In this document: positions 477-19,522 of the stretch, one piece after another
Position numbering within the stretch: position 1 is the stretch's first letter
How the letters are laid out: the number at the start of each line of letters is the position of its first letter
Virus record (IMG/VR): IMGVR_UViG_3300020438_000204
Coordinates: 1 to 28,465 of that record
Source: a virus
Strand: one strand, 5' to 3'
Length of the DNA stretch: 28,465 bases
Program-made: the position numbers and the translations under genes
Notes under the pieces: model-generated
Database searches by the model: none
What the model saw: only the letters and a program-made list of their open reading frames with translations
What the model was told of the DNA's origin: nothing

Positions 477-1330
477 TATTCAATACCATCAAAAGAACCT
501 CCGTCTACTGTTGTGAACGTAGGAGTACCATTAGCGGCTACTTGAAATATTGTACCTGAGCCACCTGGTGCTACAAAATCAATTCTTTTCCTAAAAGTTC
601 TACCTATGAGAACACCATTGTTTACATGATTACCTAATCGTAATTCATTTATTGTTGCTGTTTTATTTATGATGACATTAGCAGACTGTACAGTACTATT
701 GGCACCAGTCATTGCGACTGATGTTGATGATGTTGTATTGGCCATCGATATAGTATTAGCTTGTACAGTTTTAGCACCCACTGTTGTAAAAGTGTTTGCA
801 GATCCAATGCCTTTTGTACCAACGTATCTAGCACCTTCAATAAAAATCTTTTTACCTGAGACTGACGATGGTATGTTTGAACCTATGAAATGCAGTATGC
901 CAGCCTCATAGTCAAAGAACCACTCATCATTGTTACCAGAACCTGTTGCGAAGAGTTGTGTACCTGTTGAAGGTGCATTTGCCGCTCCTGCTGAATCAGT
1001 ATATACTTTAACAAGATATGTAGAACCAAACTGTGTAGGTATCCAATCTGTTTCGCCTGTCTTCCAAGTTCTGTTTGCTGTTGCAGTATTATCATTTGTA
1101 GTTTCTATGGCACCCGTACCAGTATAAATTCTTACATGTGTAGAGGTTGATGCTGGAATTGTAGAAGGTATCAAGTCTGCTTGAGTCCATATTATATCAC
1201 CTCTCATCAATAGAGGTGAGTCTATCGCTTCGTTTGGTGCTTTCTTTGTAGCATTTGTGTCTGTCTTCGCTTTACCATAGCCAAGTTTTTTCCACAAATA
1301 ATCTACTTTCTGTGAATCAGATATTGCCAT
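476..1330 (-). CDS. Conserved structural protein of T4-like marine phages (284 aa), probably tail-fibre associated
   Basis: The protein starts MAISDSQKVDYLWKKLGYG and carries the segments TKKAPNEAI, WIPTQFGSTYLVKVY and NDEWFFDYEAGILHFIG. I associate this pattern with a conserved structural protein found beside fibre genes in T4-like cyanophages and pelagiphages; this is recall, not a search. The C-terminal third (about residues 170-225) is a low-complexity Thr/Ser/Asn/Ala segment like the beta-helical repeats in the neighbouring fibres, and the protein ends in a short globular region (FVAPGGSGTIFQV). It has no signal peptide or membrane helix. Its ATG overlaps the stop of the PKD fibre gene, and its own stop overlaps the next ATG, so it sits inside a tightly coupled fibre operon. 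A role as fibre connector or minor baseplate protein is plausible but not shown. Confidence 0.82.
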   Translation of the reverse strand: MAISDSQKVDYLWKKLGYGKAKTDTNATKKAPNEAIDSPLLMRGDIIWTQADLIPSTIPASTSTHVRIYTGTGAIETTNDNTATANRTWKTGETDWIPTQFGSTYLVKVYTDSAGAANAPSTGTQLFATGSGNNDEWFFDYEAGILHFIGSNIPSSVSGKKIFIEGARYVGTKGIGSANTFTTVGAKTVQANTISMANTTSSTSVAMTGANSTVQSANVIINKTATINELRLGNHVNNGVLIGRTFRKRIDFVAPGGSGTIFQVAANGTPTFTTVDGGSFDGIE

Positions 1331-4300
1331 TAACTCGGTACTCCTATCGATAGTGCAGTCAGACTATCATCACTATTTAGAACGACAGAAATTAGTATCT
1401 GATTGTTGAAAGAGTTAGATGAAGACACTGTACCAAGTGTCATTGTAAATGTTTGATTACTGTAGCTAGTACCATCTGTGATTCTATCTGAACCAGTTTC
1501 AGCTATACCATTACTTCCGTTACCGCCACTACCCGTATTTCCTCCAGGAACACCAGATCCTGCATATTGTATCGATGCATCACCCCAACCATTTATACTT
1601 GATGCTGTGTCCATTGCAGTGTTCGGAACAGCTACAAAAAGTCCTGATACTTTACCAGTGAGTGTAATGCTAAAACGTGAAACTGTTGTTCTCTTAAATG
1701 CAAAAACAAAATGTTGAGCGCCAGATCGTCCTGTGTTTAAATTTGGGCCAGCTGGTAAATAACCACTTGACAAGTTCGTTGTAAAATGCTTTAATGTGTC
1801 GTATCGTACTATCGCTTCAGTTGTGCCAGCTACTGTTTGGGCACCTGTAAAAGCGTTATCTGCAAAGTAGTCTGTAGAATTATTAAAAGCTACTGCACCA
1901 CCAGTCAAACTATGAATACGTTTAGCATCATTATCAAAGCCAGAACCTAGTGAATCTGATACTGGTATAGCAGTTTCATCAAAAGATTTAGATCCGTTAT
2001 ATGCTTGAATAATCGGTGATGCTAATATTACAGCACTACCAGTTCCGTTTGAGTTCTTTGCTTTTACTTGTAATCTTTCTGCACGTTTACCACCACCATT
2101 TACGTTTACTGTCAGATTACCTAGAGCATAAGGTGATGATACTCCTACATTTACTAATGGTGTACCACTAGCTAACATAGTTGTGCTACCATCTATATTT
2201 GCATATGTAAAGTTATTTGTTCCTATTGCATTACCTGATGTGCCTTCTAAGTCAGTAGAGTTTTCTACTACTACGGGTGATGTCGTATTCTGAAATGTTT
2301 GTCCAGTAAAATTAGCTACTGTTACACCAGCGAGTGTAAGCGTTGCATCATTTGTATAATAAGGTATGCCTGATATGTGAGATAATGTACCAGCGGATGC
2401 TTGTGTGAGTGTTGCTGAAGCTACACTTGTTGTAGGAGTTGAAGTGAGATTATCTTTTATAAATTTTACTGTGTTTGTATTACCAGCAGTTGATTGTAAT
2501 TGATAAGAATGTAATCCAGTACTAAGACTGCTCTTAGATATTCTAGCTTTGTAACCCTCAAATAATGCTGGTGCATATATTCTACTATTCACTCCAACAG
2601 TATTACCATTTGCATCAAAGCTATTATAATCTTGTTCATCATCAATGATGAGACTTGTAAATGTTCCTTCATCGTTTGCATTGGTAATAGCTTTCTGTCC
2701 GTCTGCACTACCATCTACGAATGCAGTCACTGTACCACCATCTGCTTGAAAGAAAAATGTTCCCATTGCGGCTGTTGCAATTGCACCTGATGAAGTATAT
2801 CGTGTTACATTATCACCAGCATTTGTACCTGAAATGCCATTTGTTGTGAAACCAGAAGCAACTCTGGGATTCGTACCAACAGAAGAAGTATTGAGTGCTA
2901 TTGTTTTTGTACTTAGATTACTAGGTGAAGCAATTGATGCATCAAAAACTTTTATCAGTGCAGTTGTACTTAGAGGTAAGACAGCTGGATTACCACCACT
3001 ATATGCGACTACATTTAATGTAACTGTATGTCTTCCTGCACCAGATGCACTTGTATACGTGTGTGCTAATCTACCACCTTGAGGCCCACCATTTTCTGTT
3101 TTACCTGTTATATTTTCTGTAGCACCACCATCACCCCAATTTACTGAAAACGTAGCAGTGATTGCTGTGTTTGGTATATTTGTTGTTGTGTTAGTTAAAT
3201 GCACAGGTGTACCAGTCGTTGCAGTCGTTACTACACTACCACCTGATGATGCATCATGAATAGTAAATGAAGGAACTGGATCAGCTAAGAATATTGTTAT
3301 AAAATTAGAACGTGTTAGTGATGCAGTAGAACCTGAACCTGTACCTCCAGTATTCTTTGCAGTTACTACAACTGTAAAAGGTGAACCAGAGTTTGTTGCA
3401 TATGTATGACTTGGTGTTGTATCTGTTACATTACTATCTGTAGAGCCGTCACCCCAATTGATGTCAAAAGCGTTTGCATTTCCTGTTACAGTCAAAGTAA
3501 GTGTGACAACTGTACCAGCACCACCTGATGTTGTATCAGCAGAAAAAGTCACATCTCGCACGTATGTATTTTTAAATATATTAAGAGTTGTTTCGTTTAA
3601 ATTATCTAATGCTTCTACGACAGTGTCACCTGAAGCAAACCCAACGGCGGCACCATCGTTCAAATCATTAAAATCAGAACCAATAGTTGTACCATCTGCT
3701 GTTGTACTAAAACCTGATATTGCTGTATCTACGTATGCTTTACTGGCGGCATCTGTATTCTCTGTTGGTAATGCTAAACCTTTTACACTTGTTGTAAACA
3801 CATTTGCATATTTCTGACTAGGTGCACCTAAATTATATACATTTGATATAGTAGGTAAGATACTATTGTTTACTGTACCCCCAAGATTAACAACATCACC
3901 ACCATCACCAATATTAATTGTGCTACCTCTAAGTATGATAGCACCATTCACAGTTAGATTATTTCTTATCGATATATTGTTTGCATGAAGATGTGTATTA
4001 CTAGCTCTAATATCACCTGACTTTACAGTCAAACCTTTGTTGAACAAAGCTTTAGATGTTGTAACTGTAAATGTAGTATTTGCTATCAGATTTGCGGCTT
4101 CAAAGTTAGAAGTATTTAAAGTTTGTGTACTAAGAGTACCAATAGCAACATTTTGTATGACACCATCAATAACAGTATCTTTTGTAATTGTAATTGTATC
4201 ACCTGCATCTGACAGGTTTAAATTACCTAGCTTAATAGTTTGGCCAGATAGAAATAGAGTTCTAAATCTTCTACCAGGAGATCCTAAATCATAAGCATTA

Positions 4301-4608
4301 TTTGTATCGGGTATCAATGCACCCTCAACTGTATACTTTAATCCTGAGTAATGAGTTGGATTTTGTCTTAGACGAATATTACCTGAACGCAATTCAAATA
4401 ATTGAGTGTTAGCATTGTATACAAGTATAGACTCGCCATTGGCTGAGGCAGTGCCAGACGTAAACGTGTTAGTGTTTATGTCATTGAAATCTCTTAGTTT
4501 TGTTCTAGTTGGCGCTTGATTCTTTAAAGTTAAATCTTGTGTAGGTTTATCAAACTCTACATTTAAGTTACCTTTATTAGAACCTAGCGTAACATCAAAG
4601 TCCGCCAT
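1330..4608 (-). CDS. PKD-domain tail fibre / adhesin-like structural protein (1092 aa)
   Basis: This is a large secreted-type beta protein without a signal peptide, as expected for a virion fibre. The N-terminus (1-60) ends in a conserved-looking DFNDINTNTF segment. Two copies of the P-x(n)-DLG-x(n)-F/W fibre repeat lie at about 97-122 and 249-276, followed by AASKAYVDTAI at 287-297, a common fibre motif. Two PKD (Ig-like) domains follow, at about 352-420 (WGDG at 385-388, HTY at 401-403) and 445-540 (WGDG 491-494, HTY 516-518). The C-terminal 130 residues (GWGDASIQYAGSGVPGG region near 1007-1023) resemble a terminal domain I recall from other marine phage structural proteins, a candidate receptor-contacting tip. 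The gene starts 2 nt after the 116-aa gene in a unit led by a late promoter at 4984..4991. The exact attachment point on the virion is unknown. Confidence 0.85.
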   Translation of the reverse strand: MADFDVTLGSNKGNLNVEFDKPTQDLTLKNQAPTRTKLRDFNDINTNTFTSGTASANGESILVYNANTQLFELRSGNIRLRQNPTHYSGLKYTVEGALIPDTNNAYDLGSPGRRFRTLFLSGQTIKLGNLNLSDAGDTITITKDTVIDGVIQNVAIGTLSTQTLNTSNFEAANLIANTTFTVTTSKALFNKGLTVKSGDIRASNTHLHANNISIRNNLTVNGAIILRGSTINIGDGGDVVNLGGTVNNSILPTISNVYNLGAPSQKYANVFTTSVKGLALPTENTDAASKAYVDTAISGFSTTADGTTIGSDFNDLNDGAAVGFASGDTVVEALDNLNETTLNIFKNTYVRDVTFSADTTSGGAGTVVTLTLTVTGNANAFDINWGDGSTDSNVTDTTPSHTYATNSGSPFTVVVTAKNTGGTGSGSTASLTRSNFITIFLADPVPSFTIHDASSGGSVVTTATTGTPVHLTNTTTNIPNTAITATFSVNWGDGGATENITGKTENGGPQGGRLAHTYTSASGAGRHTVTLNVVAYSGGNPAVLPLSTTALIKVFDASIASPSNLSTKTIALNTSSVGTNPRVASGFTTNGISGTNAGDNVTRYTSSGAIATAAMGTFFFQADGGTVTAFVDGSADGQKAITNANDEGTFTSLIIDDEQDYNSFDANGNTVGVNSRIYAPALFEGYKARISKSSLSTGLHSYQLQSTAGNTNTVKFIKDNLTSTPTTSVASATLTQASAGTLSHISGIPYYTNDATLTLAGVTVANFTGQTFQNTTSPVVVENSTDLEGTSGNAIGTNNFTYANIDGSTTMLASGTPLVNVGVSSPYALGNLTVNVNGGGKRAERLQVKAKNSNGTGSAVILASPIIQAYNGSKSFDETAIPVSDSLGSGFDNDAKRIHSLTGGAVAFNNSTDYFADNAFTGAQTVAGTTEAIVRYDTLKHFTTNLSSGYLPAGPNLNTGRSGAQHFVFAFKRTTVSRFSITLTGKVSGLFVAVPNTAMDTASSINGWGDASIQYAGSGVPGGNTGSGGNGSNGIAETGSDRITDGTSYSNQTFTMTLGTVSSSNSFNNQILISVVLNSDDSLTALSIGVPS

Positions 4609-4610
4609 TT

Positions 4611-4961
4611 CTATATACTCTCGTTACTGCGTGTTACCTGAGGTGTGACGGTTACTATTCCTTCTACTAATCTTGAGCGTGTGTTTGCGTTATCTGTTAC
4701 TTCTACATCATATACATATCTTCCTGAAGCTAAATTCGCCGTTTGTCCTCTAGACAGCTTCATTGTTAATTGTCCATTTGTTCTTGGATTTTCAAATACT
4801 ATCTGCATATTATGTGCAGTAGTTGAAGTGAAATGTTTTCTTATTTGTCCGTGGCCAGAATAATTAGTAAGATTTACAGCATTACCGCTGTTATCTCTTA
4901 CTGTAATTGTTGTACTGAAATCTGAGCCTTGATCCACAACTATGTTAGCTTTAGCACCCAT
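4611..4961 (-). CDS. Small Ig-like virion protein (116 aa), first gene of a late transcription unit
   Basis: The protein reads as a single beta-sandwich domain: MGAKANIVVDQGSDFSTTI at the start, alternating hydrophobic strands, then LASGRYVYDVEVTD and GIVTVTPQVTR at the end. I recall the pattern (an N-terminal acidic 'QGSDF' strand, a 'TGYxAxxQIRK'-like core and a 'GRYVYDVE' strand) from small conserved proteins beside fibre genes in T4-like marine phages. The start is well supported: AAAGG lies 7 nt upstream of the ATG, and a TATAAATA late-promoter box lies just upstream of that. It heads the unit leading into the PKD fibre, so high late expression as a fibre or baseplate accessory is likely. 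It could be a fibre-attachment adaptor; no function is demonstrated by the sequence. Confidence 0.8.
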   Translation of the reverse strand: MGAKANIVVDQGSDFSTTITVRDNSGNAVNLTNYSGHGQIRKHFTSTTAHNMQIVFENPRTNGQLTMKLSRGQTANLASGRYVYDVEVTDNANTRSRLVEGIVTVTPQVTRSNESI

Positions 4962-4995: not shown

Positions 4996-5442
4996 TCAAT
5001 CTGTATTCTTTTTCACGTAGGGTACCCATTTCAAATTTTCTTCGTCCCAATCCCATCTTTTGAATTTATCTTCATTTATAACATCAGTTGGTTTTTCCCA
5101 ACCTATAGGTGGATCCCAACTCATTGTTTCTTGATTTAAAACCCAACTGGGATAAGGTTGATTATCATCATAAAATGCATCTTTCACAGCATTATAAGTA
5201 TATCCCGAGCCTGGGTAGTTAAAACGTAAAGGTGTGCCATCGTCTTCTTCATTTGTTTCAGGATCAAAATGTTTACCCATATGAGTGTTATAACTACATT
5301 TAATTAAAACTAATCCATCAGCCTTATCAGAAGGATCTAAATGTTCATCTAAATTATCTTCATCTTCATCAGCAATAGCTACTACACTTTCTACTATACC
5401 AATTGTAGTATTTGCCATTCTTACATATGCGTAATGTGCCAT
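4996..5442 (-). CDS. Trp-rich small tail-associated protein (148 aa), conserved but uncharacterised
   Basis: The protein begins MAHYAYVRMANTTIGIVESV, a start I recall from a family of small proteins (MAHFAxxxxxNxVxxV...) that sit next to fibre genes in marine T4-like and other phages. The middle holds GSGYTYNAVKDAFYDD. The C-terminal third is Trp-rich, with two related units: YPSWVLNQETMSWDPP near residues 97-112 and WDWDEENLKWVPY near 130-142. It is strongly acidic and has no signal peptide or membrane segment. It starts 17 nt after the glycine-rich adhesin gene with GAGAG close upstream of the ATG, and it is the last gene before a late promoter. A chaperone or fibre-tip accessory role is conceivable from position alone. 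Confidence 0.8.
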   Translation of the reverse strand: MAHYAYVRMANTTIGIVESVVAIADEDEDNLDEHLDPSDKADGLVLIKCSYNTHMGKHFDPETNEEDDGTPLRFNYPGSGYTYNAVKDAFYDDNQPYPSWVLNQETMSWDPPIGWEKPTDVINEDKFKRWDWDEENLKWVPYVKKNTD

Positions 5443-5459
5443 AATACTCTCACACTTTA

Positions 5460-6590
5460 TTATTGAAATTTATATTTTACAGCAATAATTCCTTTACCGC
5501 CACTTCCACCTAGTCCGCCCACACCATTACCATTATAACCTCCTCCGCCGCCGCCAGCGCCTTGATTACTACCTCCGTTACCTCCTGGCGTACTGGCAAT
5601 TCCGGGGCCCGGGCCGCCACTGCCACCTCCACCTGAGAAAGGAGTACGAGTTGCATAACTTCGTAAACCACCACCAGTTCCACCACCTGCTCTAAAACCA
5701 TTAGCTCCAGGAAAACCTGTAATGTTTATACCTGTGCCACCTCTAGAAGCGTTTATTCCAGGATCAGCAAATGGCCCCTCCCCTCCACCAGCAACTCCAG
5801 TCCGTCCAGCTCCACCCCCACCTCCGCCGCAAAGCGTTTCTTCTCTTTCAGCACCGTTTCCACCATCATGTCCTGCTCCACTACCAATTTCAAATCCTCT
5901 TTGACTATCAACAATACCAGAGCCTCCACCTCCAGAACCTCCGTTAGCAAAAAAGGTACTACTATTACTCGCTGTATGGTGAGAATAATTCATACCGCCA
6001 CCGCCACCTATGCCTGTCACGTATCTAGTTGAGTTTCCAGAAGAGTTAGCTTGAATAGCAGATTGAGTGCCTCTATTAGTAGTTCCAGTCGGATGTCTTA
6101 CATTAGGAGTAGAAAAATTAGCAGGCCCTCCACCACCACCAATACTCATATAGTAATTAGTGCGATTACCAGTGTGTATATGGCCCGACATAAAATCGCC
6201 AGCACCACCGCCACCACCGGTAATAGTTCCACCTCCTCCACCTCCACCTATAACAATATAATGTAGTTCATCTCTATCAGTACCAATAGGCTGTTGAGTT
6301 CTATTAAAACCTCCAGAATTGTTGAAAACATGAGTTCTAAAATTACCAGAAACAGTTCCATTACTTGGACTACCGCCACTCCATCTTGCAAATTGCCTTC
6401 TTGCACAACGATAAAAATCATTAACTGATATTGCATTTCCAGTATTAGGAATAGTATTAGGATCAAAAATATCATTGTTTACTATAGAATTATTCTTATA
6501 GTACTCTGATAAGGCGATCGGATTAGAACCACCTAACTCAGCTTGTATTTCAGAAAAAGATAATGGTGAACCTTCTGATTTGATTGCCAT
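5460..6590 (-). CDS. Glycine-rich adhesin-like protein (376 aa), candidate receptor-binding tip in gp38 position
   Basis: Residues 1-62 form a compact N-terminal module (LSFSEIQAELGGSNPIALSEY, then GNAISVNDFYR), a motif found in many phage fibre-associated proteins. Residues 80-114 are a beta segment (FRTHVFNNSGGF...ELHYIVIGGG) that leads into a glycine-rich domain filling the rest of the protein. Runs of glycine recur at about 115-121, 125-129, 151-155, 195-199, 217-223, 255-260, 302-308, 320-326, 346-351 and 358-365. They are separated by short loops of varied composition, and the end is GKGIIAVKYKFQ. Repeated glycine runs with variable loops resemble the polyglycine-II sandwich adhesins (gp38) of T2/S16-like phages. 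Like gp38 after gp37, this gene directly follows the large fibre gene (stop and ATG adjacent). Receptor binding is inferred. The raised local GC is explained by glycine codons. Confidence 0.82.
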   Translation of the reverse strand: MAIKSEGSPLSFSEIQAELGGSNPIALSEYYKNNSIVNNDIFDPNTIPNTGNAISVNDFYRCARRQFARWSGGSPSNGTVSGNFRTHVFNNSGGFNRTQQPIGTDRDELHYIVIGGGGGGGTITGGGGGAGDFMSGHIHTGNRTNYYMSIGGGGGPANFSTPNVRHPTGTTNRGTQSAIQANSSGNSTRYVTGIGGGGGMNYSHHTASNSSTFFANGGSGGGGSGIVDSQRGFEIGSGAGHDGGNGAEREETLCGGGGGGAGRTGVAGGGEGPFADPGINASRGGTGINITGFPGANGFRAGGGTGGGLRSYATRTPFSGGGGSGGPGPGIASTPGGNGGSNQGAGGGGGGYNGNGVGGLGGSGGKGIIAVKYKFQ

Positions 6591-9500
6591 TTATTTACCC
6601 TTTAACTCTTCAACTTCTTTCTTGAGTTCTTTTACAGCTTCGATGAGAACTGCACAAAGCTTACCATAATCTACAGACTTTGTTTGCATTTCATCATCTG
6701 ATGTATGAACTACTTGAGGTAATATTTCTTCTACTTCTTGAGCAATGACACCAACTTTTTCTGTATGTGATGCATCTTCTATCATTTTGTATGTAACGCC
6801 TCGTAGATTATCAACTTTATCTAGAGCATTATCTATTGTTTCTATATCATGCTTTAGTCTAGCATCTGAAAAAGCTGTAATATCGCCTTGTGCTACTATG
6901 GTACTAGCTACAGTTATATTCCCTGCAAAGGCGACATTTGCTCCAGAACCTGTCATCATTGTTGTAGAACTTGGCCCATTTTTAATTATTAAACTACCAC
7001 TACCATTATTTGAAAGAACACCAAATGTTGCACCAGCATCTTGCAATTGAATATCACCGCCATCTGCATTTAAGAGTATATCTCCCATGGAATCTAGTGT
7101 GAGATTTGCATTGTTAAGTGTAGAAATAGTATTGCCATCAATATCAATATTATTGACTGTCAAACCTTCCATTAAGTATTGTTTAGTTTCATCTAGATTT
7201 GTTTCATCTACACAATCAACTTTTAACTTAGCATGTGATATTGAGTTATCTCTTATATGATTTTCAGTTACGGCTCTATCAGAATCAGTTAATGCAGAAT
7301 CTTTTAATTTATCAGCATCAACAGCATCATTTGCAAGTTTAGGTGTTGTAACAGCATCAGTGGCAATAGTAGAAGAACCGATAGTAGTTCCGCCACCAGT
7401 ACCAAACTCTGTAGCTATAGTTACTGCTTGTGATCCATCGAATCCTATAACACCAGTTACAGCACCACTTAGTGAAATATTTCTACCATTTGTTAATGTA
7501 GCGGCTGAAGTTGATGTTCCATGAAATTGGTTACCATCAACGGCTGATGAAAGTTTTGTTATGACATCTCTACCATCTGTATTCTTTAATGTATCACCAA
7601 GAAAGTTTGTTCCCGCTGATACTATCGCTGAAGTTAAAGTTCCTGTAGAAGGCTTATATTTTAAATCAGCATCTTCTTTTATATCTTGTACATTTGATGT
7701 TGTAGTACTAGAAACGAATGTTAAGAAATGATCACTTGCTGAGGAACCTTCTGAAGTAGTTTTTACTTTTACATCAATATTACCTGAACCATCAAATGAT
7801 GCACCACCTATATCTCTTGCTGTTGCTAAAGCTGTAGCTGTGGCCGCATTACCTGTTGTTGAACCAGAAGTTCCACTTACATTTCCTGTCACATTACCAG
7901 TTACATCACCAGTTACGTCACCAACCAAATTACCTGTAATATTACCAGATGCACTTATTGTTGTAAATGCTCCAGTGCCAGCTGTTGTCGCACCAATATT
8001 TGCGCCATCAATTGTTCCACCATTTATATCTACTGTAGTAAAACTTGATGAGCCACCAGTAATATTACCACTAACATTACCTGTTACGTTACCAGTTACA
8101 TCACCTTGTAGATTAGCTTTGAGTGTACCTACTGTACCTGTTATTACTGCGGCAGTATCAGTAGCATCTGGTATCATAGTAAATTTACCATCACTATCAT
8201 CGAATCCGATAAAAGCTTTCTTAGCACCTGAGCTATTATACTTCATGATGATACCACGATCTAGATTATCATCTGAACCATCTGCACCAAGTTCGAATAT
8301 TGGATCTGCTATAGATACTGTTGTTGAATTAACTGTAGTAGTTGTACCAGTAACTGTTAGATTACCACCAATAGATACGTTTCGTGTTACATCTAAATCT
8401 CTTGAAACAGTTAAATCATTACCTACAGTTACATCATTTGGTAATCCGACTGTTAGTGTAGAGCCACTTGCACTTGTCTCTATTTCGTTAGAAGTACCTG
8501 CAATCGTAAATGAATGTGATGATGGTGTGATAGTACCTGAGTCACCTGCTAGTGTTTTAACAACAGTATCAGCGAGTGATACTGCACCAGTAGATACTGT
8601 GAAATCGTTAGTAAAAGACGCAACACCTTTTACTGAAGCTGTTGCGGGTGCTATTGTTAAGTCATGAGTCTTTCCATCACCTGTGCTAATTCTTACATTG
8701 TTATTTGCACTTGTATATGCAACACTTGTTAATCCAGCTACAGCTACTTCTGCCGCGGCCGTAATACGTCCCTTAGCATCAACTGAGAAAACTGGCACTT
8801 CTGTAGCTGAACCATATTCTTTTACTGTAAGGCCTGATACTGTATCAAGTTCAGTAGATGTAATAGAACCAGCGGCAATCGATGCATCAAGATTCGTACC
8901 AGCTTGTGTAGTTATTCTAAATCTCTTGTTAGAAGAGTCGTATGCGAAACCTGACACACCAGCAACTGATGTTGTAGTAGCACTTGTAATTTGTCCTTGA
9001 TTGTTAAATGTGATAATTGGTACGGCTGTTGCTGAACCCACTGTAGCACCAGTTGCTACACTTGCAAGTTTTGCTGAAACTATAGCACCTGAAGCTATAG
9101 ATGATTGATTTAGTACACCATTAGTATCAAATAAAACAGTACCACCATCTCTTGTTATAGCACCATCAAAGTCTACATTACCAGCAAAATTTGATGTACC
9201 TGATATTGCTAGAGAACCACCAGATACTGCTCCAGTTACAGCTAAAGTTTCGCCAACAGTCATCAAACCATCAACTTCTAAATCATCTGTAATTGTTATA
9301 TCTTCTAGAACATTTATACTATCAAAATATCCTACTTTCCATCTTGCACTACCAGAACCTAAGTCTTTTGTTTTATTACCATTTGGAATAATATCTGTAC
9401 TTACAACACCATTGATTGCTACTGTATCTGTACCAGCGTTACCAAGAGTAGAGTTGCCTTCTACACTCATATTTCCAGTAGTAGTTACATTAGTAAAAGA

Positions 9501-11504
9501 ACCTGCACTAGCAGTAACTGTCTGGCCAGTATCTAAGTTTAATGCTCCATCTATTGTAACATTTCCAAATATAGTAAAGGTGTTTGTTCCAGAAGAATCA
9601 CCATCTGCACCTAGAGTTATATTTCTTCCTACTATGTTATCTATGTAAGCGTTTTCCCATCTCTTTGCATTTGCACCTAAATTTCTAGTTCCTGTAGGTA
9701 CAATATTTGAGTCTACTTCTGCCGTGATTGTTAATGTATCTGATGAATTATCACCAATATTTGTATCACCATTTAGATTTACATTATTAAATGCTGAAGT
9801 GCCTCCAATTGCACCATTTATAGTAACAGCACCATTGAGTATTGTTTCTCCTGCAACTGTAAGTGTGCCAGCTGTACTTACATTACCTGAGGTATCTGCT
9901 ACTGTAAATTTATTTGTATCTACTGCAATACCGCCATTAAAACTTGCTAAACCTCCAGCTGTCAATGTTCCTGTAGTTGCAATATTACCAGTAGTGTCTG
10001 CAACTGTAAAAGCACTATCAACATCTATACCACCATCTAGACTTGCTAAACCTGTCGTGTTCAATGTTGTTATATTACCAACACTAATATTACCTTGTGA
10101 TAATGTTGTGATTCCATTCGTAGCAGTTATTGTTCCAGCAAACGTAGCGTTTTCATCAACATCTAGAGTATCTATATGTGCTGTGCCATCTATGAATAGG
10201 TTTTGCCATTCTCTATTTGTTGATCCTAAATTATGCGTGCCATCTGTTTTTGGTATGAGTGAAGTTGAAACGCCTTGTCCACTTCCAACTGCAACTGAAA
10301 GTTCATCTATGTTTGCAACACCATCTAAATGCAAATCTTTCCACTGTTTTGATGAAGAACCTAAATCTCTTGCATCATCTGTAGATGGAACTAAATCTGA
10401 AGCAAATTGTGCAGTTGCTGTAATAGTGTCAGTTGTTGCGTTACCTAATACAGTATCACCAGTTGAGGTAAGATTTACAGCAGTTAAATTTCCTGTTGTG
10501 CCGAGAGTACCGCCTATTGTTACGTTGTTTAGTGTAGCAGTTCCTGATGAGAAAATATTTCTCCACTGATAGTTTGAGTTACCTAAATCTTTTGCATTAT
10601 GAGTTGTAGGTAATAAATCTGAACTGACGCCATCTCCTGATGTTGTACTGAGACTTAACTTATCAGTAGTCACAACACCACTAAAATTACCATCCTCAAA
10701 TTTAGCTGAACCCGAACCTATATTTACTGAACCGCCAGAAGGTAATATTGTTCCTGAAGTTGTTATACCTACAGTTGTAAGTCTACCAGCTGATTGAAAG
10801 TTACCATCTGCACCAAACGTATGTACAGTATTATTCGCACTTGTCTGAATTTTTAAATTACTATCTGCATCTGCACTTACAAGCTGTATCAGTAAGTCTG
10901 AATTACCAGCTGTAGAGTCGCCATCACCATAAACTCTAAACTTATCTTGTCCTCCAGTACCTGCTGAAAATCTTAAATCAGGTGTGTTGAGTTCTTCTGA
11001 GAAAGCTGTATTAGAAGAAGATAATATAATGTGTGCGGCATTAGAAGATAAATCTCCTAATTGTCTCATTGTCAAAGGTGTTGCTGTTATCTCTGATAAA
11101 CCAGTTTTTCTTAAAAAGTCACCAGAGTTACCACCAGTTACACGAATACGTGATAAATCACCCATGATAATTCTATCGTCAGCGGCCGTTGTAAAATTTA
11201 CATTTCCTGTAAATTCTGTATTCGCATTTATTGTAAAAGATCTAGCTTCAATTGTTGTATTTGAATGAAGAGTTATTGCACTTTCGTTTGTAGTATTACC
11301 ACCTCGTATCGAACTGGATCTAAAATTTAAAGCACTAAATGTACCTTTGATATGGCCATCGCCTCTTGATGTACCTCCTCTTGCGGCACCAGTTCTTGTC
11401 ACTGTAACAACATTGTTACCTATTGTAGTGGCGGCTAAATTAGTATTCAGTCTCCAAGTATTGAAGCTATCTACAAGATTTGTATTTGCTATCGTTACAG
11501 TCAT
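6591..11504 (-). CDS. Large tail fibre with C-terminal S74 intramolecular chaperone (1637 aa)
   Basis: A long, Cys-poor, Thr/Ser/Gly/Asn-rich beta protein typical of trimeric phage fibres. A short N-terminal domain (1-130) is followed by five P-x(n)-DLG-x(n)-W repeats at about 294-322, 369-395, 414-440, 599-624 and 703-730. A module with DRGIIMKYNSSGAKKAFIGF lies near 1080-1115. Two blocks of V-T-G-(N/D) repeats lie near 1131-1152 and 1184-1210, and a KLANDAVDADKL repeat near 1380-1430. The last 92 residues are a Peptidase_S74 chaperone, SDARLKHDIETID...VGVIAQEVEEILPQVV, ending in a coiled coil. Ser1546 and Lys1551 match the Ser-Lys dyad spacing known for autocleavage just before the Ser, so the chaperone is probably shed after trimerisation. 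Gene spacing to both neighbours is 0-2 nt. Confidence 0.93.
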   Translation of the reverse strand: MTVTIANTNLVDSFNTWRLNTNLAATTIGNNVVTVTRTGAARGGTSRGDGHIKGTFSALNFRSSSIRGGNTTNESAITLHSNTTIEARSFTINANTEFTGNVNFTTAADDRIIMGDLSRIRVTGGNSGDFLRKTGLSEITATPLTMRQLGDLSSNAAHIILSSSNTAFSEELNTPDLRFSAGTGGQDKFRVYGDGDSTAGNSDLLIQLVSADADSNLKIQTSANNTVHTFGADGNFQSAGRLTTVGITTSGTILPSGGSVNIGSGSAKFEDGNFSGVVTTDKLSLSTTSGDGVSSDLLPTTHNAKDLGNSNYQWRNIFSSGTATLNNVTIGGTLGTTGNLTAVNLTSTGDTVLGNATTDTITATAQFASDLVPSTDDARDLGSSSKQWKDLHLDGVANIDELSVAVGSGQGVSTSLIPKTDGTHNLGSTNREWQNLFIDGTAHIDTLDVDENATFAGTITATNGITTLSQGNISVGNITTLNTTGLASLDGGIDVDSAFTVADTTGNIATTGTLTAGGLASFNGGIAVDTNKFTVADTSGNVSTAGTLTVAGETILNGAVTINGAIGGTSAFNNVNLNGDTNIGDNSSDTLTITAEVDSNIVPTGTRNLGANAKRWENAYIDNIVGRNITLGADGDSSGTNTFTIFGNVTIDGALNLDTGQTVTASAGSFTNVTTTGNMSVEGNSTLGNAGTDTVAINGVVSTDIIPNGNKTKDLGSGSARWKVGYFDSINVLEDITITDDLEVDGLMTVGETLAVTGAVSGGSLAISGTSNFAGNVDFDGAITRDGGTVLFDTNGVLNQSSIASGAIVSAKLASVATGATVGSATAVPIITFNNQGQITSATTTSVAGVSGFAYDSSNKRFRITTQAGTNLDASIAAGSITSTELDTVSGLTVKEYGSATEVPVFSVDAKGRITAAAEVAVAGLTSVAYTSANNNVRISTGDGKTHDLTIAPATASVKGVASFTNDFTVSTGAVSLADTVVKTLAGDSGTITPSSHSFTIAGTSNEIETSASGSTLTVGLPNDVTVGNDLTVSRDLDVTRNVSIGGNLTVTGTTTTVNSTTVSIADPIFELGADGSDDNLDRGIIMKYNSSGAKKAFIGFDDSDGKFTMIPDATDTAAVITGTVGTLKANLQGDVTGNVTGNVSGNITGGSSSFTTVDINGGTIDGANIGATTAGTGAFTTISASGNITGNLVGDVTGDVTGNVTGNVSGTSGSTTGNAATATALATARDIGGASFDGSGNIDVKVKTTSEGSSASDHFLTFVSSTTTSNVQDIKEDADLKYKPSTGTLTSAIVSAGTNFLGDTLKNTDGRDVITKLSSAVDGNQFHGTSTSAATLTNGRNISLSGAVTGVIGFDGSQAVTIATEFGTGGGTTIGSSTIATDAVTTPKLANDAVDADKLKDSALTDSDRAVTENHIRDNSISHAKLKVDCVDETNLDETKQYLMEGLTVNNIDIDGNTISTLNNANLTLDSMGDILLNADGGDIQLQDAGATFGVLSNNGSGSLIIKNGPSSTTMMTGSGANVAFAGNITVASTIVAQGDITAFSDARLKHDIETIDNALDKVDNLRGVTYKMIEDASHTEKVGVIAQEVEEILPQVVHTSDDEMQTKSVDYGKLCAVLIEAVKELKKEVEELKGK
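7874..7950 (-). repeat. In-frame 12-bp tandem repeats encoding V-T-G-N/D units (block 1)
   Basis: The + strand shows repeated units of the form ttaca/gtca-cc-ag. On the minus strand they encode successive four-residue NVTG/DVTG units inside the S74 fibre. Unit length is 12 bp, so copy-number change keeps the frame. A second, related block lies at 8053..8112. Confidence 0.7.
8053..8112 (-). repeat. In-frame 12-bp tandem repeats encoding V-T-G-N units (block 2)
   Basis: Same 12-bp unit as the block at 7874..7950, encoding GDVTGNVTGNVSGNITGG. The two blocks flank a GTIDGANIGATTAGTGAF module of the fibre shaft. The arrangement looks like internal duplication of a shaft cassette. Confidence 0.65.
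9315..10625 (-). repeat. Degenerate fibre-shaft repeat array (five P...DLG...W units)
   Basis: Five copies of a roughly 27-residue motif are encoded here: a hydrophobic-Pro turn, then (D/N)LG, then a Trp and an aliphatic strand. Examples are SDLVPSTDDARDLGSSSKQW, TSLIPKTDGTHNLGS and STDIIPNGNKTKDLGSGSARW. Two relatives, with Phe or Tyr in place of Trp, occur in the separate PKD fibre gene at its residues 97-122 and 249-276. The units are diverged at DNA level, so the array is old or under selection rather than freshly duplicated. Confidence 0.7.
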
Positions 11505-17761: not shown

Positions 17762-19522
17762 TTAAAAATCTAGTATAACTTTAATGTCTTCTGTTTGATC
17801 TACTGCTCTATCTACTTTCTGAAAGTTCTCTACATGTATGAACTCACCAGAATATGTGTTCGCTTCTGGGCCAGATATTGTTGATACAGTTGCAACTTTT
17901 GTAGAATTTCCTCTTTTTAACAAAACGTCATTCTTAGTAAAAGCAACATGATTACCATAACTATCTACATTATTTAGATAGATATTAAAGAACGATGTAT
18001 CACTAATTGTCTCATCATCTTTAATAAAAACTATTGTTCCATTTGCTCCGTTTGATGCTTGTGCTACTGAAGCGTTTTGTCTTGCGGACGCATTTAGTTC
18101 AGTAATAAATCCAATGGTACCATTCTCAGCATTTATTCTCATTCTTTCATTTGTTATCTCATCATCTATCTGAAATTGATTCTGTGGTATATTATTTATG
18201 ACTTGCTGATAAGATATATTTAATCTTGTTGTTAATCTTAATGTGTCTGCACTATTAGAGGTGTTCGCTATAGCCTCTGTCATAATAGCATTATTTGAGT
18301 TGACTTTCAGAATAGGATCTTTTAGAATGCTTATTGTTCTAAACTCTGTATTTGCAGGAATGAAACCTTTGCCAGTTGATGATACGCCTTGACTACCTTT
18401 GAACTGTGCATTCAAACAAACTTTATTACCACCTAATTCTTTAATTGCATCTTTACCGTGGCCACCTATAGGTGATATAATCACATTTGCAGTAGCACCC
18501 GTACCTTGAACTGTGTTTGATGAGATATATGCTTTAGCATGAGTATACTTAGAACCCACTGCTATTACATTTACATTTGAAATATTACCATTTGTGTTTA
18601 CTAACGAATAGGCTAAAGCTCCTACACCATCACCTATAATATTTACTGTTGGTGATATAAGAACTGTAGAAGTTGTATCTGGTGTTGTTGAGAACCCTGT
18701 GTTGGTTGTAAGAGTTCTTGAAGAGCCATCATAGTTTACAATTCTTCTCAGTTGTCCTAATCCTGTACCCGATTGTATATAAACAGAGTCGCCATTGTAA
18801 TGATTATCTACTGAAGATGGATTACCTTGTGCTAGTTGAATTGTAGTTGAAGTAGCACCTATAACGGAAGTACTATTCAGCATACCATAACCTGAACCTA
18901 CATCATTTGTTTCAACAACATGTATTGCACCATTTACTGATGCATTCTGTACTGATACTTGATTATTTTGCTCTGCACTACCATCACTATTGTTCAATGT
19001 TTGTACAGGCATATGTGTAGCTGTTAAGAATTTATTTGCTAGTCCTAAACTAATTGTGTACATATACTTCCAAGTATATCCATCTGATGTAGTAAAAGGT
19101 GTTGTAGAAAAACCAGCAGGCTTAACAGTTGACTGTCCGCCTTTATTATTGTATAGACATTTGTAAATATTGTTCTGATCGGTTAAAACAAAAAAGTTAG
19201 AAGTATATAAGTTAATATTTGTTTGCTTGTACATAGGATAAACTGTACCCGTAGCCCAATCGTTTCTAGGAACTACATGACTCACATCGGTTGCGTTTAT
19301 TTTCTTAGCTCCTATGGCATCTTTCCAAATAGTATAATGTTTATCTTCGATTGTCTCTATAGCTGTAGGCGAGTTTGGTTCATTTGGCCATTCTGTACTT
19401 TTACCTAGAACAGCATAAAGCACAGTTGAGTTCTTTGTGCTTCTTCCATCTGTCTCATTTACAGAATCTACGAAAGCTTTCGCACCCATGATGTTCATTT
19501 CTTTACTAGCATAAGAAGTCAT
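17762..19522 (-). CDS. gp8: Baseplate wedge protein gp8
   Basis: Two blocks match T4 gp8 as I know it: VVPRNDWATGTVYPMY at about residues 83-98 (T4 has VIPRRDWGDTRYP) and SDGYTWKYMYTIS at 146-158 (T4 has GDGYVWEYLFEI). The first 50 residues include the gp8-like VLYAVLGKSTEWPNE strand. At 586 aa it is much longer than T4 gp8 (334 aa), with the extra length in the C-terminal beta-rich half (for example NIIGDGVGALAYSLVN and NVIISPIGGHGKDAI). In T4, gp8 joins gp10, gp7, gp6 and gp53 in the wedge. The gene follows the gp7-position gene with an overlapping TAATG, which fits the gp6-gp7-gp8 wedge gene order. Confidence 0.88.
   Translation of the reverse strand: MTSYASKEMNIMGAKAFVDSVNETDGRSTKNSTVLYAVLGKSTEWPNEPNSPTAIETIEDKHYTIWKDAIGAKKINATDVSHVVPRNDWATGTVYPMYKQTNINLYTSNFFVLTDQNNIYKCLYNNKGGQSTVKPAGFSTTPFTTSDGYTWKYMYTISLGLANKFLTATHMPVQTLNNSDGSAEQNNQVSVQNASVNGAIHVVETNDVGSGYGMLNSTSVIGATSTTIQLAQGNPSSVDNHYNGDSVYIQSGTGLGQLRRIVNYDGSSRTLTTNTGFSTTPDTTSTVLISPTVNIIGDGVGALAYSLVNTNGNISNVNVIAVGSKYTHAKAYISSNTVQGTGATANVIISPIGGHGKDAIKELGGNKVCLNAQFKGSQGVSSTGKGFIPANTEFRTISILKDPILKVNSNNAIMTEAIANTSNSADTLRLTTRLNISYQQVINNIPQNQFQIDDEITNERMRINAENGTIGFITELNASARQNASVAQASNGANGTIVFIKDDETISDTSFFNIYLNNVDSYGNHVAFTKNDVLLKRGNSTKVATVSTISGPEANTYSGEFIHVENFQKVDRAVDQTEDIKVILDF

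Follow-up and report, generated by a model that had tools for sequence, protein, structure and literature searches.

A phage glycine-rich protein with a Pam3 gp24-like predicted fold as a candidate receptor-binding tip, and its association with phrog_7759 genes

A glycine-rich gene beside an S74 tail fibre

The subject of this analysis is a window of 28,465 nucleotides (nt) from the virus record IMGVR_UViG_3300020438_000204 (positions 1 to 28,465), and within it an open reading frame (ORF) on the minus strand at 5460 to 6590. The ORF begins with ATG and encodes a glycine-rich protein of 376 amino acids (aa), which is a candidate tail-fibre tip or receptor-binding protein. No gap separates its start from the stop codon of the gene for a 1637-aa tail fibre (6591 to 11504, minus strand), which matches phrog tail fibre families and carries a C-terminal S74 intramolecular chaperone (PF13884, E = 2e-18, residues 1546–1600). 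The location immediately behind an S74 fibre that was proposed in the initial annotation is therefore correct. On the other side lies a gene for a 148-aa protein of the phrog_7759 family (4996 to 5442, minus strand). The phage was assigned as a T4-like myovirus because a 586-aa protein, encoded at 17762 to 19522, matches the baseplate wedge gp8 proteins of T4-like phages.

The 376-aa protein contains 107 glycines, with 11 runs of at least three and 8 runs of at least four, the longest being seven, all located within residues 115–351. This agrees with the earlier count of at least ten runs. As a control, residues 105–376 (35% glycine) were shuffled. The 8 observed runs of at least four exceed the shuffled mean of 2.6 (p = 0.001), and the excess is weaker for runs of at least three (11 observed, 7.6 by shuffling, p = 0.07).

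The protein matches phrog_2295 (E = 2e-24). It also aligns with the Pfam model PF21722 (Gly_rich_2) over model positions 13–226 of 226, with scores of 20.2 and 17.2 bits that do not reach the curated cut-off of 24.3. A set of loci with the same N-terminal motif supplied 22 more relatives in which the glycine domain is complete. In the resulting alignment of 24 sequences, all match phrog_2295 and 23 match PF21722 (E up to 0.1, best 1.7e-21). A copy with 84% identity is found in the same gene order on a second contig, L001. A tblastn search of phages with the full protein gave no match, probably due to masking of the glycine part by the low-complexity filter, and with the N-terminal part the search returned Lentibacter phages only. 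Against the Protein Data Bank (PDB), phmmer with the protein itself yielded only noise, and a profile of the 24 relatives gave a weak match to gp24 of cyanophage Pam3 (E = 0.2); the top match of the profile, 8ay1, was discarded as it involves a glycine-serine linker. The gene is a marine-type phage gene and its product is a widespread, already known kind of glycine-rich protein.

Residues 1–66 (6393 to 6590, minus strand; FSEIQxELGGSNPI.LxEYY) form a probable docking module with the consensus MAIxxxGxxxSFSEIQxELGGSNPIxLxEYY. The initial annotation had described a fibre-type N-terminal module, and as a module it is real, since the same segment heads many phage proteins with unrelated C-termini, often right after an S74 fibre. 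AlphaFold2 gave a predicted local distance difference test (pLDDT) score of 36–52 over most of the module, and most of residues 1–62 are unreliable. Of 23 loci encoding a complete glycine-rich protein, 17 have an S74 fibre within 200 nt on the upstream side, usually at a distance of 3–7 nt. For module proteins with other C-termini this is true in 16 of the 48 loci with room, and 15 such loci (each with at least 2.5 kb of sequence) have the module without an upstream S74 fibre. In several phages, relatives of the glycine domain are joined to different N-terminal regions and lie apart from S74 fibres, which indicates that the domain has no fixed link to a gp37-like fibre. Lentibacter phage ICBM1 (locus L004, 4674 to 5264) has a minimal form of the two-part architecture with a length of 196 aa; no phrog_7759 gene follows it, and an annotated tail assembly chaperone gene is found just upstream instead.

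Predicted fold and loop variation of the glycine-rich domain

A single-chain AlphaFold2 model (m6d32a4e74e7b) was built on the alignment of 24 sequences and searched against known structures with Foldseek and VIA-align. The model has a mean pLDDT of 69 and a predicted template modelling score (pTM) of 0.72; pLDDT is 70–93 in the β strands and over a large share of the glycine part. From about residue 84 to 376 (5463 to 6341, minus strand) it predicts a TNF-like β-sandwich bearing a glycine lattice. The best VIA-align matches were chain Q of the mycobacteriophage Bxb1 tail tip (9d93_Q, Z 14.2, 187 residues at 3.2 Å, over residues 85–374) and Pam3 gp24 (7ypx, Z 14.2; 7yfw, Z 13.7; 198–204 residues), so that the three alignments cover 187–204 residues at 3.2–4.4 Å. 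Foldseek returned the same top chains. The next group consisted of the glycine-rich domains of ALK and LTK (Z 6.6–7.3), and the remainder scored below 4. Because the model contains only ∼60 strand residues and ∼190–200 residues were aligned, most of the aligned part would be non-strand residues, chiefly those of the glycine lattice. Among predicted viral structures, 204 match the model at E up to 0.001, including proteins of Synechococcus phage Bellamy, cyanophage S-TIM4, and Pelagibacter phage HTVC025P; the best rows are mostly named "Glycine-rich domain-containing protein."

The S16 gp38 fold combines a β-helix with a polyglycine II (PGII) sandwich. Its structure, 6F45, is not among the matches listed by Foldseek or VIA-align, an absence that is not proof. 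The structure prediction called for by the initial annotation favours a stacked glycine lattice, but the closest fold among the matches listed is the TNF-like and glycine-rich domain of Pam3 gp24 and the Bxb1 chain, and not gp38.

The Pam3 tail fibre gp24 forms a trimer; its glycine-rich domain has a conserved stem and a variable distal tip, and the fibre is folded with the chaperone gp25 (PMC9608196). The window resembles this system in the predicted fold (Z about 14 to 7YFW and 7YPX) and in the small possible-chaperone gene next to the glycine-rich gene. The systems differ in that the N-terminus here is a short, low-confidence module and that of Pam3 gp24 a long helical bundle, and identity over the structural alignment is about 28%. 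Bxb1 chain Q, which we take to be grouped with the polyglycine-rich "brush" domains, has the same fold, but a siphovirus tail tip is a different attachment context. ALK and LTK share a distantly similar TNF-like sandwich with glycine stretches (Z about 7); as these are animal receptor domains, the weaker match may reflect a shared arrangement only.

Across the 24 sequences, mean entropy is 1.71 bits in the loops, 1.34 bits in the predicted strands, and 0.74 bits in the glycine runs, in keeping with the variable loops between glycine runs suggested previously. In all five of the closest pairs, the loops change proportionally more than the glycine runs. This pattern is consistent with a conserved stem that ends in a variable tip. 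The comparison of the window with L001 involves the fibre as well. The glycine-rich protein is 84% identical, and the distal fibre region (about residues 1400–1637) is about 50% identical, which makes it the least conserved stretch among the genes compared. At the nucleotide positions concerned (6591 to 7300 of the window and 5290 to 6000 of L001), the distal fibre and S74 region is ∼50% identical and the neighbouring genes compared are 84–97% identical, which suggests that the fibre end may have been replaced or evolves fast.

The adjacent phrog_7759 gene

The 148-aa protein encoded downstream of the glycine-rich gene may be a partner or chaperone dedicated to the glycine-rich protein, a role suggested by gene order and by analogy to Pam3. 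All 34 members of its family match phrog_7759. A phrog_7759 homologue lies within 38 nt after the glycine-rich ORF in 30/47 loci and after a non-glycine ORF in 0/37 (Fisher p = 5e-11, uncorrected for relatedness). Starting independently from 13 other phage records with a phrog_7759 gene, a glycine-rich ORF was found directly before it in 11, and several of these ORFs have N-termini unlike that of the window protein. The exceptions are DSL-LC04, in which genes intervene, and ct2KA10, which has no glycine-rich ORF in the stretch examined. Taken together, these counts indicate that the partner tracks the glycine domain and not the N-terminal module. In Pelagibacter phage HTVC023P (locus L135, 1652 to 7432), four glycine-rich genes in tandem precede a single phrog_7759 gene, an arrangement that would suit one partner acting on several tips.

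The predicted model of the 148-aa protein is confident (pLDDT 89) and had no fold match in the PDB, and the sequence had no convincing match in Pfam, NCBIfam, or the PDB sequences. PF02413, used for the comparison with gp25 and Tfa, did not match. In these searches, neither sequence nor fold relates the protein to Pam3 gp25 or other PDB chains.

Two further genes lie beyond the 148-aa gene. A 116-aa protein (4611 to 4961) matches phrog_3304 ("L-shaped tail fiber protein assembly") and phrog_1084, and is 97% identical in L001. A 1092-aa protein (1330 to 4608) matches phrog_8578, a family of unknown function; it contains two NWGDG motifs that recall PKD domains and has no Pfam match.

A probable receptor-binding role and its alternatives

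The 376-aa protein is best read as a receptor-binding tip built around a lattice of stacked glycine stretches; proteins of this type are already known and common. What was observed here is the family of the sequence, its predicted fold, the order of the genes, and the variability of the loops; from these we infer the trimer, the docking site, receptor binding, and the chaperone role. In full, we consider it likely that the protein is a virion receptor-binding protein of the Pam3 gp24 kind, with N-terminal docking, a TNF-like sandwich, a glycine lattice, a probable trimeric state, and a folding partner. The short N-terminal module would dock the protein to the tail, whether at the tip of the adjacent S74 fibre or elsewhere on the tail. 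The TNF-like β-sandwich would bear parallel glycine-rich stretches stacked as a lattice. This lattice would serve as a stem that is rigid and conserved, with variable loops at its distal end touching the host surface. The protein probably acts as a trimer, and the product of the gene at 4996 to 5442 probably aids folding or trimerisation of the repetitive domain, as gp25 does for Pam3 gp24. Several points weigh against this proposal: the protein itself falls short of the PF21722 cut-off (20.2 versus 24.3 bits), the confidence of the model is middling and residues 20–62 are not confidently modelled, and in the pair formed by the window and L001 it is the fibre end that changes fast, not the glycine-rich protein.

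The initial annotation had likened the locus to the gp37-gp38 arrangement of T2 and S16, in which the product would be a monomer clipped on the tip of the upstream fibre. The gene does come right after that of a long fibre, its product does combine glycine stretches with variable loops, and Pam3 gp24 itself is reported to be similar to S16 gp38 (2.7 Å over 52 Cα; PMC9608196). We nevertheless regard a gp38-type adhesin as quite improbable, given that the gp38 model PF05268 gave no match even with an E-value limit of 10, that the best folds among the matches listed are Pam3 gp24 and Bxb1, that the upstream fibre has its own S74 chaperone, and that relatives of the glycine domain carry unrelated N-termini. 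The adhesin proposal therefore survives in substance, as a glycine-rich and probably receptor-binding virion protein with a conserved core and variable loops, and loses its gp37-gp38 label.

A variant of the preferred reading places the docking site elsewhere, such that the protein would be a separate short fibre or a baseplate or tail-tip receptor-binding protein unattached to the S74 fibre. Pam3 gp24 docks to the baseplate through its own N-terminus (PMC9608196), glycine-domain genes occur apart from S74 fibres in several phages, and the N-terminal module is found without an upstream S74 fibre in the non-glycine loci described above. The tight spacing in 17/23 loci suggests instead that the fibre and the glycine-rich protein are a functional pair, and we hold the variant to be possible but not favoured. 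It could also be argued that, receptor binding being a candidate role here, the glycine lattice might form only a stable spacer in a structural or decoration protein. This we find unlikely, as variation is concentrated in the loops and as mutations in the glycine-rich domain of a related fibre, from a Klebsiella phage, restored infection, with lipopolysaccharide as the trigger (PMC12671077), which points to host adaptation through such domains in Pam3-like phages.

Aquatic phages very commonly carry glycine-rich domains, most of which have no functional name; the link to the Pam3 gp24 and Bxb1 fold gives the 376-aa protein of our preferred reading a testable receptor-binding role. The link to the partner gene is the less expected part of these findings and the one most worth following. 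We tentatively propose, at somewhat less than an even chance, that phrog_7759 is a family of chaperones or partners that are specific to glycine-rich receptor-binding domains and have a fold unseen in our PDB searches. Combined with an exchangeable N-terminal docking module located behind S74 fibres, it would make up a modular host-recognition cassette in general use among aquatic phages. As a possible folding partner, the phrog_7759 protein might be needed for the laboratory production of such glycine-rich proteins.
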